A stretch of DNA of 64,000 nt, from the NCBI RefSeq assembly GCF_003967175.1, contig NZ_AP018553.1, positions 124,001 to 188,000 of the forward strand, given 5' to 3'. The position numbers and the translations under genes are program-made. This DNA comes from Sulfodiicoccus acidiphilus (lineage in GTDB: Archaea > Thermoproteota > Thermoprotei_A > Sulfolobales > Sulfolobaceae). The notes beneath the pieces are model-generated. The model was not told where the DNA came from. It did no database searches and was given only the letters and a program-made list of their open reading frames with translations. This document shows positions 10,508 to 40,546 of the stretch, in pieces (positions within the stretch are counted from its first letter, which is position 1; every line of letters begins with the position of its first letter).

Positions 10508-11083
10508 ATGATACCTTCGAGGGCAGAGTTGAAGCAACTTAGGGAATTGGCAGGCTTGACACAGAAGGAGCTCGCCAAGAGAGTCGGGGTGTCGCAATCT
10601 CTGATAGCCAAGGTTGAAAGTGGTAGAATAGACCCAAAGGTATCGCTAGTTAAAAGGATACTGGACGAAATTTACTCCGTCCTTAATACGCACGAGACTG
10701 TCGAGAAAGTCATGAAACACCCAGTAATATGCGCGGAGGAAAATGAGAGCCTGTCATCTATAACTCAGAAAATGGAAACCAATGGAATTTCCCAGCTACC
10801 TGTTCTTAACGGGGATGGTAGAGTGATTGGAATGATTTACGATTCCGTGATTCTTAAGAGGTTGTTAAGAGGCCCTGCACGCGAGCTAAAGGCGAAAGAC
10901 GTCATGGCTCCTGTACCTCCACTCCTCTCATTAAAGACTTCCTTGGACGTGGCCATGAAGCTCCTACATAAACATCAAGCAGTTCTCGTAGTTGACGAGA
11001 AGCTGCAGCCGCTCGGCATAATCACGAGAAGCGATATTATATTGTATAAGATAACGGCCCAGGGGGGCCGCGGAGTCGGCTGA
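10508..11083 (+). CDS. HTH-XRE transcriptional regulator with two CBS domains
   Basis: A 191-residue protein. Residues about 5-60 form an XRE-type helix-turn-helix (LAGLTQKELAKRVGVSQSLI), followed by two CBS domains at about 65-118 and 125-182 (VMKHPVICAEENESLSSI; VMAPVPPLLSLKTSLDVA). CBS pairs bind adenosine nucleotides, so an energy-sensing regulator is plausible; its targets are unknown. It starts 15 nt after Sec61-beta. The last 23 nt of the ORF overlap the RNase P RNA, and the RNase P promoter lies inside its 3' end. Confidence 0.88.
   Translation: MIPSRAELKQLRELAGLTQKELAKRVGVSQSLIAKVESGRIDPKVSLVKRILDEIYSVLNTHETVEKVMKHPVICAEENESLSSITQKMETNGISQLPVLNGDGRVIGMIYDSVILKRLLRGPARELKAKDVMAPVPPLLSLKTSLDVAMKLLHKHQAVLVVDEKLQPLGIITRSDIILYKITAQGGRGVG
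11037..11044 (+). promoter_or_regulatory. TATA box of RNase P RNA, inside the upstream ORF
   Basis: TTATATTG lies about 20-24 nt before the predicted 5' end of the RNA at 11061. It is embedded in the last codons of the HTH-CBS gene. Confidence 0.45.
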
Positions 11084-11375
11084 CGGGGGCTTCCTGCCCC
11101 TGAGGAAACTCCAGCCTACTGGCCAAGGACAACCTCGTGAGAGGTGGGGTCAGTAGCCCCGGCAACGGCACAGAAACTCGCGATCGTCTAGGAAATGAAA
11201 ATGAACCTGCCTCAAGTGGGGGCAACCTCACTTGGGTGGCGAGACTGGGACGATCGCGTGAAAGGCCGTCCTGTCCGTAGCAAGTGAGGGTGGGCGTGAG
11301 ACGGCCCGATCCACCCCTAGAACGCGTAGCCGGATGCCGACCAGAACAGAAGCTGGGTTACCTCGCGGCCCCCCT
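11061..11375 (+). ncRNA. rnpB: RNase P RNA
   Basis: The catalytic RNA that removes 5' leaders from pre-tRNAs. The ends pair to form helix P1: AGGGGGGCCGCGG at 11061-11073 with its complement at about 11363-11375. Inside are the universal core elements: GAGGAAACTCC (CR-I), GGCAACGGCACAGAAAC (CR-IV) and CCAGAACAGAAGCTGGGTTA (CR-V). The length of about 315 nt fits archaeal type A RNA. The ends are set by P1 pairing and may be off by a few nt. The 5' end overlaps the preceding ORF. Confidence 0.93.
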
Positions 11376-11801: not shown

Positions 11802-12463
11802 CCCTAGGTAGAAGTTCCCTAGTCTAGACAGTGTCTCATTCTTTCTAAGTTAAGCTTTCACTTAAATCTGCTAGAACCTAACGAGGATGAATCGTTGACG
11901 GAGATTGAGCGTAAATCTCTAGGCAGCTGATTGTGTTGGGATAAACCGTTATCTCTCCCTTACTTTGGGTTCTTGGGTAGGGAAACCTGTATCAAGTTTC
12001 ACAACGGAGCAGCTCACGGACCACGAGAGCATTACACCGTTTTTAGCTGCTCCGATTCACAAAACGACGAGAGCCCCACCTTCTGGGAGGCGGGACGTAG
12101 ATTTAAACAACAACTTGCTGAAATGTTCTCATCGACGCTAACGACACCCCTCTCTAACTCGACCGAGGACTCGACCAAAATGAGGGAGGAACAACCAACT
12201 TTTTACTTTAATTCGTCTCCCACTTAACGCTATTTCGTCTACGAAGGTTCCCCCATCGGATGTTGGAGTCCTATGGACCACCTATTGCCCATCGAAGTAG
12301 AGCCTAACCGACAGTGGGAACTACGAACCCTTGGAGGAGAACCCTCAACGATGGGGAGGAAGCCAGGCAAAAGGGGACTTAACCTAGAGTCTCTCGGTGT
12401 TTTAGAGCCCTTTCATTAAGGGCCAGATTGGACGTGACTTAGAGTAGTTGTCACACGACGGAG

Positions 12464-12729
12464 TGTTTACCCGCGGCGTAACTCATCCACCTCCAATTCC
12501 GCCCCGGCCACCCTTAAGGGATCGCAAACCCTCAAGTCCTCGGGGCCGGTGGAGGGGAGCACCACCCTCCACCCTCACCTTCGTCGTCCCCCACCCTCTC
12601 GAGAGGTGCCCGTCCTCGGTTCATGGGTAGTCGACTGAAGTCCTCGGGTGGCACTACGTGAACGCAACTCTCGACAAGGACGTTTAGAAGAGATTGAAAG
12701 CGTTTGGTTGCGCGAAGGTGCTATAGTCT
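12464..12729 (+). repeat. 266-bp perfect inverted repeat, copy 1
   Basis: These 266 nt are identical to the reverse complement of 37351-37616, compared base by base. There is no terminal inverted repeat, no obvious target duplication and no convincing ORF. Both copies lie in non-coding surroundings. Confidence 0.95.
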
Positions 12730-13197
12730 CCGAGTTCCTAGTGACGAACCCTCTAACTCACCTCCTCGCTGCCCTGGAAGGGTTCCCCTCCTATGGCTCG
12801 TCTTTCCCACCCTCTGTTCGGGTTCACGTCCCTGGTGGGCAGTAGAGTGGATCGGGGAGGGACCCCACTCGAAGGTGGGACTTTCCTCCGTGAAGTCCAT
12901 TGAGGGAGAACGCGGTCGCCCCTCCCTCGTTTTCGTCGAAACCCCGATCGATCTGGGGGGAGGGGCGTCGTTGGCGCCAACCAGGGAAATTTAGACGGAG
13001 GGGTGGAGGGGGCTACACCCCCGTGAAGGGCGAGGGTTTCCGCCCCCTCGACCCCCAGTTTGTAAGTCTTATCTTCGGACCCGCCCTTCAGGTGGCGAGA
13101 TAAGTAGTCTCCAGTCCGCGGTGGGAATTGTGAACCTCCTGGAGGCTACCCATTAGGGAAGAAGTGGTGCGGGTTTATTGAAACTCTCGCTTGTGAC

Positions 13198-34949: not shown

Positions 34950-36337
34950 GTGCAGGTCTCGATTAGAGAGTTCAGTTCCATTTCTTCGATAAAGGGGCCG
35001 CTGATGGTTGTACAGGGCGTTAATGACGCGGCCTACAACGAAATAGTTGAGGTTGAATTGGGGAATGGAGAGAAGAGAAGGGGTATCGTAGTAGACTCCC
35101 AACTAGGACTTGCCGTAGTACAGATATTCGAAGGAACCAGTGGAATATCTCCAGGTAGCTCTAGGGTTAGGTTCCTAGGGCGGGGACTTGAGGTCAAAGT
35201 CTCCGAGGAGATGCTAGGACGTATATTCAATCCCCTAGGCGAACCTCTTGACGGTGGGTCACCTATAATCAAGGGAGAGAGGAGGAACGTTAATGGCGAA
35301 CCACTTAACCCAGCTGCTAGGGAGTACCCCGAAGAGTTTATTCAGACTGGTATCTCCGCTATCGATGGTCTTAACGCCCTCCTGAGAGGGCAGAAGCTTC
35401 CCATATTTAGTGGTAGTGGACTTCCTGCGAATCAGCTAGCGGCCCAAATAGCTAGGCAAGCGACTGTAAGGGGGAGGAGTCGAATTTCGTAGTAGTCTTC
35501 GCAGCCATAGGGATAAGGTATGACGAGGCCTTGTTCTTCAGGAAGTTCTTCGAGGAGACTGGCGCTATAAACAGGGTCGCCCTTTTCATGACTCTGGCTA
35601 ACGATCCTCCCGTTGTCAAAACATTAACCCCTAAGACAGCGTTAACCCTGGCCGAATACCTAGCTTTCGAACAGGACCTTCATGTCCTCGCTATCCTCAT
35701 AGACATGACAAATTATTGTGAGGCGCTTAGGGAGATAAGTGCCTCCAAGGAAGAAGTTCCAGGCAGGCAAGGTTACCCTGGCTACATGTACACCGACTTG
35801 GCGACTATATATGAGAGGACAGGGAAAGTGAAGGGCAAGAAAGGCTCGATAACCCAAATGCCAATACTTTCAATGCCTAATGACGACATAACTCACCCCA
35901 TACCAGACCTTACGGGATATATAACCGAGGGACAGATAGTCTTAGACAGGGCCCTTTACAATAAGGGCATATATCCTCCGATTAACGTGCTAAGCAGTCT
36001 GTCTAGACTCATGAAGGATGGAATAGGGGCAGGTAAAACTAGGGAAGATCACAAGGATGTCTACAACCAGCTCTATTCCTCGTATGCTCGTGGAGTAGAA
36101 CTAAGAGGGTTGGCCGCCATAGTGGGGGAGGAGGGCCTCAGCGAAACTGACAGAAAATACTTACTGTTCGCTGACGCCTTCGAAAGAGAGTTCGTGAACC
36201 AAGGGGTAACGGAAAATAGGACGCTTGAACAAACGTTAGACATAGGATGGAAGGTTCTCTCCACATTGCCGGAGAGAGAGTTAACAAATGTGAGACAGGA
36301 GTATATTGAAAAGTATATGAAGGGAATAAGGAAATGA
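34950..36337 (+). pseudogene. atpB: A-type ATP synthase subunit B, one frameshift
   Basis: The frame is broken at the G-run 35470-35474. Before it, 34950-35492 encodes the normal N-terminus to [16 protein letters not shown] and then reads into a stop; after it, the neighbouring frame carries the rest ([20 protein letters not shown] to the end). Adding one G restores [20 protein letters not shown], the conserved B-subunit sequence, and a protein of about 462 residues. Subunit B is the non-catalytic partner of A and indispensable, so a consensus error is the likely cause. It ends overlapping atpD by 4 nt. Confidence 0.93.
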
Positions 36338-36963
36338 GTTCTAAGAAGGTTTTGCCAACCAAGCTTAACTTAATTACACTAAGGAGGCAGTCGAAGCTCA
36401 TAAAGACAATAAGGCGAATATTGGAGAACAAGAGGGAAGTTCTACTTCTCTACTTGAGGACGTATGCTGCGGAGTATGAGAGTGTATATGGAGAGGTAGT
36501 GAAGGCATTGAAAGTTAGCTACGACGGGATTCTAAACGCCTCAGTGGACGAAGGATTAGACTCAATTCAGCAGATTACTTCCTCTACTCCGAGGACCCTC
36601 GAGGTAGGTCTAGTGACCAAGTCAATTTTCGGAGTTAAGATACCTATAGTTAAGCTCAATGAGTCGAGCATCCCTCAGCGGACTTTTTCAGGAATAGAAA
36701 CCTCTCCGTACCTCGTAGAGAGTTACGATCAGATGAAAGACGGGTTAAAGATGCTAATTCGATTAGTAGAACTGGAGTCTACCATACGTTCCTTATCGAT
36801 GGAACTCAGGAGAACACAGAGGTTGATTAATGCTGTGGATAACTCTATAATGCCCTTTTATGATTCCTCCATAAAGTATGTTAAAACTGTATTAGAGGAT
36901 AGAATGAGAGAAGAATTTATAAGACTTAAGGTAATGAGAAGAATGCTTCAGCGGAGGAGGTAA
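36334..36963 (+). CDS. atpD: A-type ATP synthase subunit D (central stalk)
   Basis: A 209-residue rotor-shaft subunit made of long helices. [20 protein letters not shown] at the start and [20 protein letters not shown] in the C-terminal part are the D-subunit signatures. Its ATG overlaps the atpB stop by 4 nt, and a short ORF follows 3 nt after its stop. Confidence 0.92.
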
Positions 36964-37350: not shown

Positions 37351-37616
37351 AGACTATAGCACCTTCGCGCAACCAAACGCTTTCAATCTCTTCTAAACGT
37401 CCTTGTCGAGAGTTGCGTTCACGTAGTGCCACCCGAGGACTTCAGTCGACTACCCATGAACCGAGGACGGGCACCTCTCGAGAGGGTGGGGGACGACGAA
37501 GGTGAGGGTGGAGGGTGGTGCTCCCCTCCACCGGCCCCGAGGACTTGAGGGTTTGCGATCCCTTAAGGGTGGCCGGGGCGGAATTGGAGGTGGATGAGTT
37601 ACGCCGCGGGTAAACA
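37351..37616 (-). repeat. 266-bp perfect inverted repeat, copy 2
   Basis: The exact reverse complement of 12464-12729. It begins AGACTATAGCACC and ends GGGTAAACA on the + strand; identity stops sharply at both ends. It shows no ORF, terminal inverted repeat or target duplication that I can see. Confidence 0.95.
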
Positions 37617-37756: not shown

Positions 37757-37903
37757 ATGGCTTCCTACAGATGTGGTAAGTGTTGGAAAACCTTTGACGA
37801 CGCCCAGCTTAAAGTACTTCCTGGAATAAGGTGTCCATACTGTGGGCATAGAATAATATATATGGTAAGAAAGCCGATTGTAAAAGCGGTTAAGGCAGTT
37901 TAG
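37757..37903 (+). CDS. rpoP: RNA polymerase subunit P (Rpo12)
   Basis: A 48-residue zinc-ribbon subunit. [10 protein letters not shown] and [10 protein letters not shown] provide the four cysteines, and the order with RxxxP ending matches Rpb12/Rpo12. Too short for standard ORF cut-offs. It starts leaderless by TATA spacing. Its last 14 nt overlap the 3' end of the convergent agmatinase gene. Confidence 0.9.
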
Positions 37904-38780
37904 ATTTTACAGCTGCAGCGACCTCAAATATCATCTTGGCCCCTAGAATAGCCGTTATCCCTGAGTGGTCAAATGGCGGAGACACTTCTACTACGTCGAA
38001 TCCCACCGTTCGTTGGTCAACTATGAGGTTCATGATGTCTAGTATAGTTGAGGGATCTAGACCTTCGGGCTCCGGAGTTGCCACTCCTGGTGCATAAGCG
38101 GGATCTATAGCGTCCATGTCAAGTGAAACATAGACGTTCCTGCATCCGTTGAAGTGTGTTAGTACCTTTCTGCTAACCTCCCTAGGGCCGAGCAGTTTCA
38201 CCTGATGAGAGGTGATGAAAGGTATTCCAGCTGTATTGGCATACTCTATTTCGTCTTTACCTACGGCCCTGTTTCCTACCTCCATTATCTTGAATCCTAA
38301 TTCCGAGATTCTCCTCATTACACATGCGTGGTCGTATCTATAGCCCATGTATTCGTCTCTGAGATCTAGATGAGCGTCAAACGAGAGAACACACGTTTCT
38401 TCGGGACTCATTGCGCTCACGATTCCCGTCGTTATGGTGTGTTCACCCCCAATGGAAATCAGGAATTTTCCTTTATTCAAGACATATGTTGCAGCATCTC
38501 TTATTCTCCTCAAGTTGAGTTCGACATCAGAGGGGTGCAATATGACGTCGCCTACGTCGTCGAAGCCGAACTCACTTACGTCAACCCCAGTTCTAATAGA
38601 GTAGAATTCTATGAACTGTGCAGCCTCCCTAATAGCACCTGGAGCAAATCTACTACCTGGTCTGTAGCTACTCGTTATGTCCATGGGGATTCCCATTACA
38701 GCGAACTTGGAGGTGTGTCTCCTCGACCCGGCGAAAAGCCGACTTCCCTCATTTACGTAAAGCAACGCCGATTCGTCCAT
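37890..38780 (-). CDS. speB: Agmatinase/ureohydrolase
   Basis: A 296-residue binuclear manganese hydrolase of the arginase/agmatinase family. Metal-site motifs are [20 protein letters not shown] (Asp and His ligands) and [15 protein letters not shown]. The start at ATG 38780 (MDESALLY) is preferred; the open frame runs 37 residues further up without homology-like sequence. It would convert agmatine to putrescine and urea, feeding the spermidine synthase encoded at 43.2-44.1 kb. Arginase activity is the alternative. Confidence 0.88.
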
Positions 38781-38824
38781 AGTGGCGTAATTCGATGTTC
38801 TTTTATTAAGTCTAGCGTTTCTCC

Positions 38825-40546
38825 ATGGCCGTGGATAACGTAGATAAGGTGCTGGATCTCGCCAAGAGGAGGGGACTTTTCTGGCCATCATACGAAATTT
38901 ACGGTGGAGTAGGAGGACTCTATGATCTGGGCCACGTGGGAGTTAAAGTTAAGAACAGGATCATCAGGTTGTGGAGACGGCTCTTTGTCGAGGAGAACTC
39001 TGACTTTGTGGTGGAGATAGAGACTCCTGTCATCACCCCTAAAAGGGTCTTAGAAGCTAGTGGTCATGTACAGAACTTCACTGATCCAGTAGTCGAGTGC
39101 TTGAGTTGTCATAGGGTGTTCAGGGCAGATCACTTAGTGGAGGGGGCTCTTCATATTTCAGCGGAGGGACTGACTACTTCTCAGTTAACGGAACTGATAA
39201 AGTCAAAGGGCCTCAAGTGTCCTCAATGTGGGGGAGAACTTGGCGAAGCTAGGACGTTCAACCTCCTCTTCACCACGAATATAGGTCCTTATACAGGTGA
39301 GACAGGATATCTAAGGCCTGAAACCGCACAGGGAATATTCACCTCTTTCAAGAGAGTCTTCATGAGTGCCAGAGAGAAGCTCCCCTTAGGGATCGCCCAG
39401 GTGGGCAGGGTGGCGAGGAACGAAATATCCCCGAGGCAAGGGCTACTGAGAATGAGAGAGTTCACGATAATGGAAATGGAGTTCTTCATCGACCCTAAGA
39501 AGCCTGGAGACCCTCCCATTTCTAAAATTGGTAAAAGGAAGCTAAACATACTTCTAGCAGAGTCAAAGGTAAGAGGTGACCCCCCTTCCTCGTTCAGTGT
39601 GGAAGAGTTGATGACTGGTAAACTAGTTCAGAGTCCATGGATGGTGTATTGGATGGCGATAGCTAATGACTTCGTTAATAAGCTAGGCATTAGAAGTGAG
39701 AATTCCTACTTCGAAGAAAAGCTCCCTCAGGAGAGAGCTCACTACTCTTCCCAGACCTTCGATCAGTTAGTTGTAATAGGAGACGAGAAGATCGAGTTGT
39801 CAGGACATGCCTACAGAACCGATTACGACCTTTCGAGACACATGCAGTTCAGCGGGGAGGATCTCACTGTTTTCAGACGTTTTGAAGAGCCAAAGCTTAC
39901 TAGAGTGAAAAAAGTGGTTCAATTACCTGTTCGGAAAGACAAGTTAACTGCAGCTAACTTAACAGAGTTCCTGAAGGGAAAGAGCCCCGAAGAGATAGAG
40001 GAGGCGTTGAAACTTGGGGTCGTGATAGGTGACACACCTCTAAGTACCCTTGTTAAGGTTGAGGAAGTGGAGGAGAAAGTGTCTGGTGAGAAGTTCGTTC
40101 CTCACGTAATAGAGCCTTCCTTCGGGGTCGAAAGGTGTCTATACGTGGCCACGCTGAGGGCATATAGGGAAATCCAGGGTAGGGTCGTTCTGTCCCTACC
40201 AATCGATATAGTTCCTTACGACGTTGCAGTATTCCCTCTGCTAGGCAGAGACGATATGGTGAGAGAGGCAGAGAGAATAGTCTCGATGCTAAGAGCTAAG
40301 TACGATGTTCTATACGACTCCTCAGGTAGCATAGGTAGGCGGTACGCTAGGATAGATGAGATTGGGGTGCCATTTGCCATAACCGTGGATGGGGACACAT
40401 TAAGGGATGGTACGGTCACCATAAGGGACAGGGATAGCTGGAACCAAGTTAGGGTTCCTCAGGCAACGTTGCTGGAAGTGTTGGAGAAGTTATTTAACGG
40501 CGAGAAGTTAGAGAGTTTAGGTATGCCCGTGAAGGGTGAGCTCTAG
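38825..40546 (+). CDS. glyS: Glycyl-tRNA synthetase
   Basis: A 573-residue class II enzyme of the archaeal/eukaryotic alpha-2 type. Motifs are [20 protein letters not shown] at the start, CxxC pairs in [10 protein letters not shown] and [10 protein letters not shown], class II motif 2 in [18 protein letters not shown], and the C-terminal anticodon-binding domain (VALSL-type strand near [19 protein letters not shown]). The ATG lies 44 nt from the divergent agmatinase start. Confidence 0.95.

Follow-up and report, generated by a model that had tools for sequence, protein, structure and literature searches.

The repeat pair and its surroundings

The window considered here is a 64,000-nucleotide stretch, bases 124001-188000, of the genome of Sulfodiicoccus acidiphilus HS-1, which was assembled from PacBio reads as a single contig of 2,353,189 bases (PMC6647314). 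Two copies of a 266-bp sequence, designated A and B, lie in this window in opposite orientations. Comparison of positions 12464-12729 with the reverse complement of 37351-37616 gave zero differences over exactly 266 bp, and the match stops at once on either side, not one base of it extending further. The perfect inverted repeat reported in a preliminary description of this DNA is therefore real, its identity and orientation having been reproduced exactly, and both copies were also correctly placed in non-coding gaps. Copy A is intergenic, on the 3' side of the RNase P RNA gene (11064-11372), and copy B occupies the intergenic space between ORFs 36334-36963(+) and 37890-38891(-). The features of the two copies are as follows.

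12464..12729, minus strand (tnpB sense): copy A of the probable non-autonomous element, running from its left end at 12729 to its right end at 12464
37351..37616, plus strand: copy B, identical to A but inverted, running from its left end at 37351 to its right end at 37616
about 12465-12725, minus strand: body of copy A
12463-12464 and 12726-12727: putative exchange dinucleotide GT of copy A
12728-12729: CT of copy A, mostly target-derived
12674..12729, minus strand: left end of copy A (AGACTATAGCAC...), the counterpart, in alignment, of the opening ~56 nt of the complete IS607-type elements in relatives
12618..12673, minus strand: linker of copy A, boundaries approximate, unmatched in complete elements
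12588..12617, minus strand: internal tnpB scrap of copy A, 80-85% identical to complete elements across 27-30 nt
12464..12570, minus strand: right end of copy A, tnpB 3' remnant running into the terminus, candidate guide-RNA scaffold
12470..12508, minus strand: terminal hairpin P4 (CCGGGGCGG...CGCCGCGGG, tnpB sense), 11 of the 13 family pairs kept
12562..12575, plus strand: CCACCCT-CCACCCT, a 7-bp tandem duplication private to copies A and B

A dispersed repeat of ~300 bp (12756-13066) directly adjoins copy A. It has ~35 further matches in the genome with 66-99% identity, several of them near other TnpB loci, and is probably another short mobile element.

Copies in the genome and in related archaea

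The preliminary description proposed that copies be counted throughout the genome and sought in other Sulfolobales. Six full-length copies (94-100% identity) were found in S. acidiphilus, together with older, diverged ones. The four that exist besides A and B are 258-259 bp in length with 94-96% identity, and two older relatives stand at ~70-74%. Since four further full-length copies are present elsewhere in the genome, chance is excluded as the source of the repeat. The ends of the copies are sharp, with TGTTTACCCGCGG at one end and GCTATAGTCT at the other; identity breaks exactly at these ends and the flanks of all copies are unrelated, in agreement with the sharp borders described earlier. 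A stretch of 302 bp (L082:1049-1350; G000:C1:358748) carries both terminal motifs around an interior that is not alignable with the family, and is perhaps another deletion derivative.

Among 60 relatives, diverged homologues were found in four genera, and most of them begin at the same first base. When two mismatches at most were allowed, the end motif was found 117 times in Metallosphaera yellowstonensis MK1 and 10-17 times in several other genomes, and the reversed control pattern gave zero matches in the same search. A longer pattern with one mismatch allowed was found 106 times in M. yellowstonensis and is present in 19 of the 197 genomes of the order, belonging to 9 of its 74 genera. The same ends bound elements of ~300 bp in many Sulfolobaceae. 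No match to the element was obtained in the known plasmids or phages searched. The right-end motif is present on two contigs, a viral one from IMG/VR and another binned as Caldivirga (L249:5473-5492; L245:3224-3248), where, by eye, little else of the element is recognisable.

Complete elements and the structure of the short form

Several copies of the end motif sit at the 3' end of a tnpB-like gene, and complete elements with the same two ends, 1959, 1962 and 1972 bp in length, were found in three relatives. They encode a serine-recombinase TnpA together with TnpB and belong to the IS607 family. Both genes are intact in one relative (G030); in another (G028) the tnpB of 441 codons stops 3 bases short of the element end, and the IS607-type tnpA upstream of it is frameshifted. 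The TnpA of 205 aa is an IS607 transposase (NF033518, E 4.6e-64; PF00239, E 6.6e-26), in the complete relatives it has an N-terminal HTH_17 at residues 4-51, and its best solved matches include the TnpA of ISC1926 and ISC1904. The TnpB of the complete elements matches TIGR01766 (E 4.1e-16) and no Pfam family. The cognate TnpB (L085:1501-2826) falls below the guided_TnpB cut-off and, by eye, has no CxxC zinc-ribbon motif, so that, judged from its sequence, it looks like an atypical TnpB. The possibility, raised in the preliminary description, that the repeat is part of a known IS has thus been largely borne out by complete IS607 elements with the same ends in relatives, although none is present in this genome.

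Read in the tnpB sense, well-preserved short copies align with the complete element over their first ~52-56 nt and last ~140-150 nt, and they contain an extra tnpB scrap from near nt 1690-1740. The short form is missing ~85 nt of tnpB between this scrap and the 3' part and nearly everything upstream of the scrap, and its linker of ~55 nt has no match anywhere in the complete elements. Such a layout is common to the copies from Sulfodiicoccus, Metallosphaera and g6 genomes, and the short form therefore probably descends from a single deletion derivative. Subterminal inverse similarity is present in the family, though there is none at the tips.

The tnpB reading frame is interrupted in both window copies. 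BLAST against the complete elements recovers only the scrap and the right end of these copies, the latter with ~66-67% identity, and their left end was recognised via the family alignment and the common terminal bases. In the linker of copy A, TTCACGTAG is the degenerate counterpart of a TATA-like block, TTTATATAG, of other family members.

Junctions and the mode of insertion

At 62 distinct junctions, G stands before TGTTTACC in 60 cases and A stands before that G in 43, and the opposite end is usually AGTCT followed by unrelated bases, this constancy at both ends being partly imposed by the search pattern. Occupied and empty sites, the comparison of which had been advised in the preliminary description, were compared in relatives and revealed no target duplication. 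Unoccupied sites were three bases longer than the joined flanks, the added bases being CCT, TCT and TTT at two sites and TCT at others; divergent cases were found too. These extra bases indicate that TCT is largely target-derived, and the assignment of the constant TCT to the element was therefore dropped. The bases of the unoccupied sites are also compatible with strand exchange over an overlap of 2 bp, GT, with nothing duplicated. Most junctions agree with such an overlap; AT takes the place of GT at one junction in two of the six S. acidiphilus copies, and GG was not seen. For IS607, exchange over GG without target duplication has been described (PMC6188088; PMC4058570).

Since the final CT of the 266 bp, following GT, is mostly target sequence common to many insertions, the mobile unit is a few bases shorter than the 266-bp stretch of identity. 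No unoccupied versions of the two window sites were found in the congener G001. The absence of a transposase, terminal repeats and target duplication from the repeat was correctly noted in the preliminary description, and the junctions and unoccupied sites agree with it. It presents no puzzle and is the expected signature of the IS607 family of serine-recombinase elements.

At the site of the complete element in G028 (G028:C1:1553035-1554993; L079), three relatives are longer by ~69 bases, which suggests that target sequence was lost during insertion or later.

A probable orphan derivative of an IS607-family element

With its anatomy and junctions as described above, and its transposition deduced from them, the 266-bp sequence is very probably a non-autonomous, MITE-like derivative of an IS607-family element formed by internal deletion. 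Such a deletion in an element with a TnpA serine recombinase and TnpB would yield a short element with both ends and, because both ends are kept, the cognate TnpA could move it in trans, presumably by exchange at a matched GT dinucleotide, a movement that would leave no tip repeats and no target duplication. A recent event, most likely over a short distance, would have made copies A and B, and the loss of the cognate TnpA and TnpB from the genome would have left the copies stranded. The 3' end of tnpB, positioned as a guide-RNA scaffold, may yield a guide RNA where TnpB coexists. Among the explanations offered in the preliminary description for the perfect identity, the one with most support is mobility in trans, of which recent duplication is a consequence. 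For the family, with its putative and partly covarying structure at the tnpB 3' end, a conserved RNA function is plausible; the case for it is weakest for copies A and B.

The cognate TnpB has no match in the S. acidiphilus HS-1 genome, and the only trace of the parent transposase there is a fossil tnpA fragment (G000:C1:1760001-1760084; L152) of 28 aa with 71% identity. The S. acidiphilus copies are therefore orphans, the set remaining after loss of the parent element. Five IS607 TnpAs belonging to a different subfamily (42-45% identity) are also encoded in the genome; mobilisation by them was judged unlikely because their elements end differently from the 266-bp element. The copies are probably stranded, and their mobility would now be unlikely unless the parent were reintroduced. 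Unsequenced strains may harbour additional relatives of the autonomous element.

A possible guide RNA

TnpB systems have their guide-RNA scaffold on the 3' side of tnpB, and the guide itself comes from the flank. In the family considered here, the retained 3' end of tnpB lies at the element border with the flank directly after it, which is the position of TnpB guide RNAs. The IS607 TnpB guide RNA known as RAGATH-18 is independent of the coding sequence, its TAM being AGGAG or GAGGG (PMC11061315). It is possible, although we lean against it, that the element spreads or persists by making a TnpB guide RNA from its own promoter, with TnpB from elsewhere cutting unoccupied sites and favouring retention of the element. 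This would add to the explanation by an IS607 derivative and would not replace it.

A family structure of ~190 nt with four hairpins at the tnpB 3' end speaks for a guide RNA, having 88.9% paired cells across 51 sequences versus at most 57% when slid, and 38 double-changed cells that keep pairs versus at most 19 when slid and a mean of 21.6 when shuffled; this structure was drawn from one family member, which is a bias, and the slide and shuffle controls leave phylogeny in. The TATA-like block of the linker, found in most copies and conserved about as well as the left end, and AGAC, which is constant at the opposite junction and is a possible TAM, point in the same direction. On the other hand, RNAalifold gave a weak consensus of -7 kcal/mol for the full alignment, the window copies have a degenerate TATA-like block and fold no better than shuffled sequences, and the genome is without a cognate TnpB. 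A miniature guide-RNA unit is, on these sequence features, plausible for the family and doubtful for the eroded window copies, and in those family members that coexist with TnpB, a guide RNA may be produced from the retained tnpB 3' end. No Rfam family matched at gathering score, and a known RNA family was therefore rejected as the identity of the 266-bp repeat.

A broader proposal, which seems to us somewhat unlikely, is that the family unites a miniature transposon with a portable guide-RNA gene having its own promoter, the RNA of which would load the TnpB of other elements to cut vacated sites. The units of M. yellowstonensis, at least 100 in number, would then form a guide swarm served by few TnpB genes and spread in trans by the serine recombinase. 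If the guide-RNA reading is true, the RNA should start ~25 nt past the TTTATATA block and run into the flank. Well-preserved copies retain the end of tnpB from which the scaffold would form, and they therefore provide a natural test of whether guide RNAs acting in trans can spread elements encoding neither transposase nor nuclease.

Origin of the identical pair

The nearest other copy is 3 substitutions away from A and B. Two of the 15 copy pairs are less than 25 kb apart (simulated P 0.03, for a distance cut-off set after the data were seen), and the second close pair differs by 2 substitutions and 1 indel. The perfect identity of A and B, together with their private 7-bp duplication, argues for a recent hop, probably local, or for gene conversion. 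The pair appears to have arisen in a recent event, most likely by short-distance copying, with gene conversion between older insertions as the alternative.

Nearby repeats are generally well known to undergo gene conversion, and even the 7-bp duplication is common to both copies. The exact end of identity at the element borders, however, is expected from either process, and the remaining copies, including the second close pair, have not been homogenised. Conversion is unlikely in our opinion, and we favour local transposition.

A non-coding RNA gene of independent origin, copied within the chromosome without any tie to a transposon, would also be non-coding, conserved and structured, but the sequence has ends and tnpB sequence in common with IS607 elements, its insertion sites are unrelated, it occurs 117 times in one species and it belongs to no Rfam family, which makes this explanation very improbable. 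An assembly artefact, a concern of the preliminary description that the perfect identity of the copies might feed, is made highly unlikely by the complete PacBio assembly (PMC6647314), the unrelated flanks of every copy and the four further copies that are non-identical.

Comparison with known elements

Like MITEs, the element is short, non-coding and multicopy, with ends common to autonomous elements in other genomes. Terminal inverted repeats and target duplication are absent, and it is for this reason called MITE-like and not a classical MITE; it works like a MITE, though outside the classical definition. The MITE-like lifestyle rests here on an IS607 serine recombinase, without terminal or direct repeats, and MITE finders that seek terminal repeats would miss the family. 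A search of the literature available without subscription found no description of such an IS607-derived family in Sulfolobales.

The Sulfolobus MITEs SM1-SM4 and SMN1 are likewise short, non-coding and multicopy and are moved in trans by related elements (PMC3718332; PMC10969869). They have been described with terminal inverted repeats flanked by direct repeats and depend on the transposases of ISC1733 and ISC1058 (PMC3718332; PMC10969869), whereas the window element has neither type of repeat and is IS607-derived. ISC1904 and ISC1926, IS607 elements of Sulfolobales, resemble the complete relatives in having a serine-recombinase TnpA with TnpB, and also in the lack of tip repeats and target duplication and in what is probably matched-dinucleotide exchange. 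Unlike them, the window element is gene-free, with GT as the putative exchange dinucleotide in place of GG and a target preference for (A)GTCT.

The structured region at the 3' side of tnpB, with the flank in what would be the guide position, resembles the omegaRNA/reRNA class, including RAGATH-18; in contrast to RAGATH-18, the candidate RNA of the window element overlaps the coding end of tnpB and has no Rfam match. PATE-like elements derived from IS200/IS605 share with it a TnpB remnant, the absence of target duplication and a hairpin near the right end, but the complete relatives of the window element carry a resolvase-type serine recombinase and not a Y1 (HUH) TnpA.
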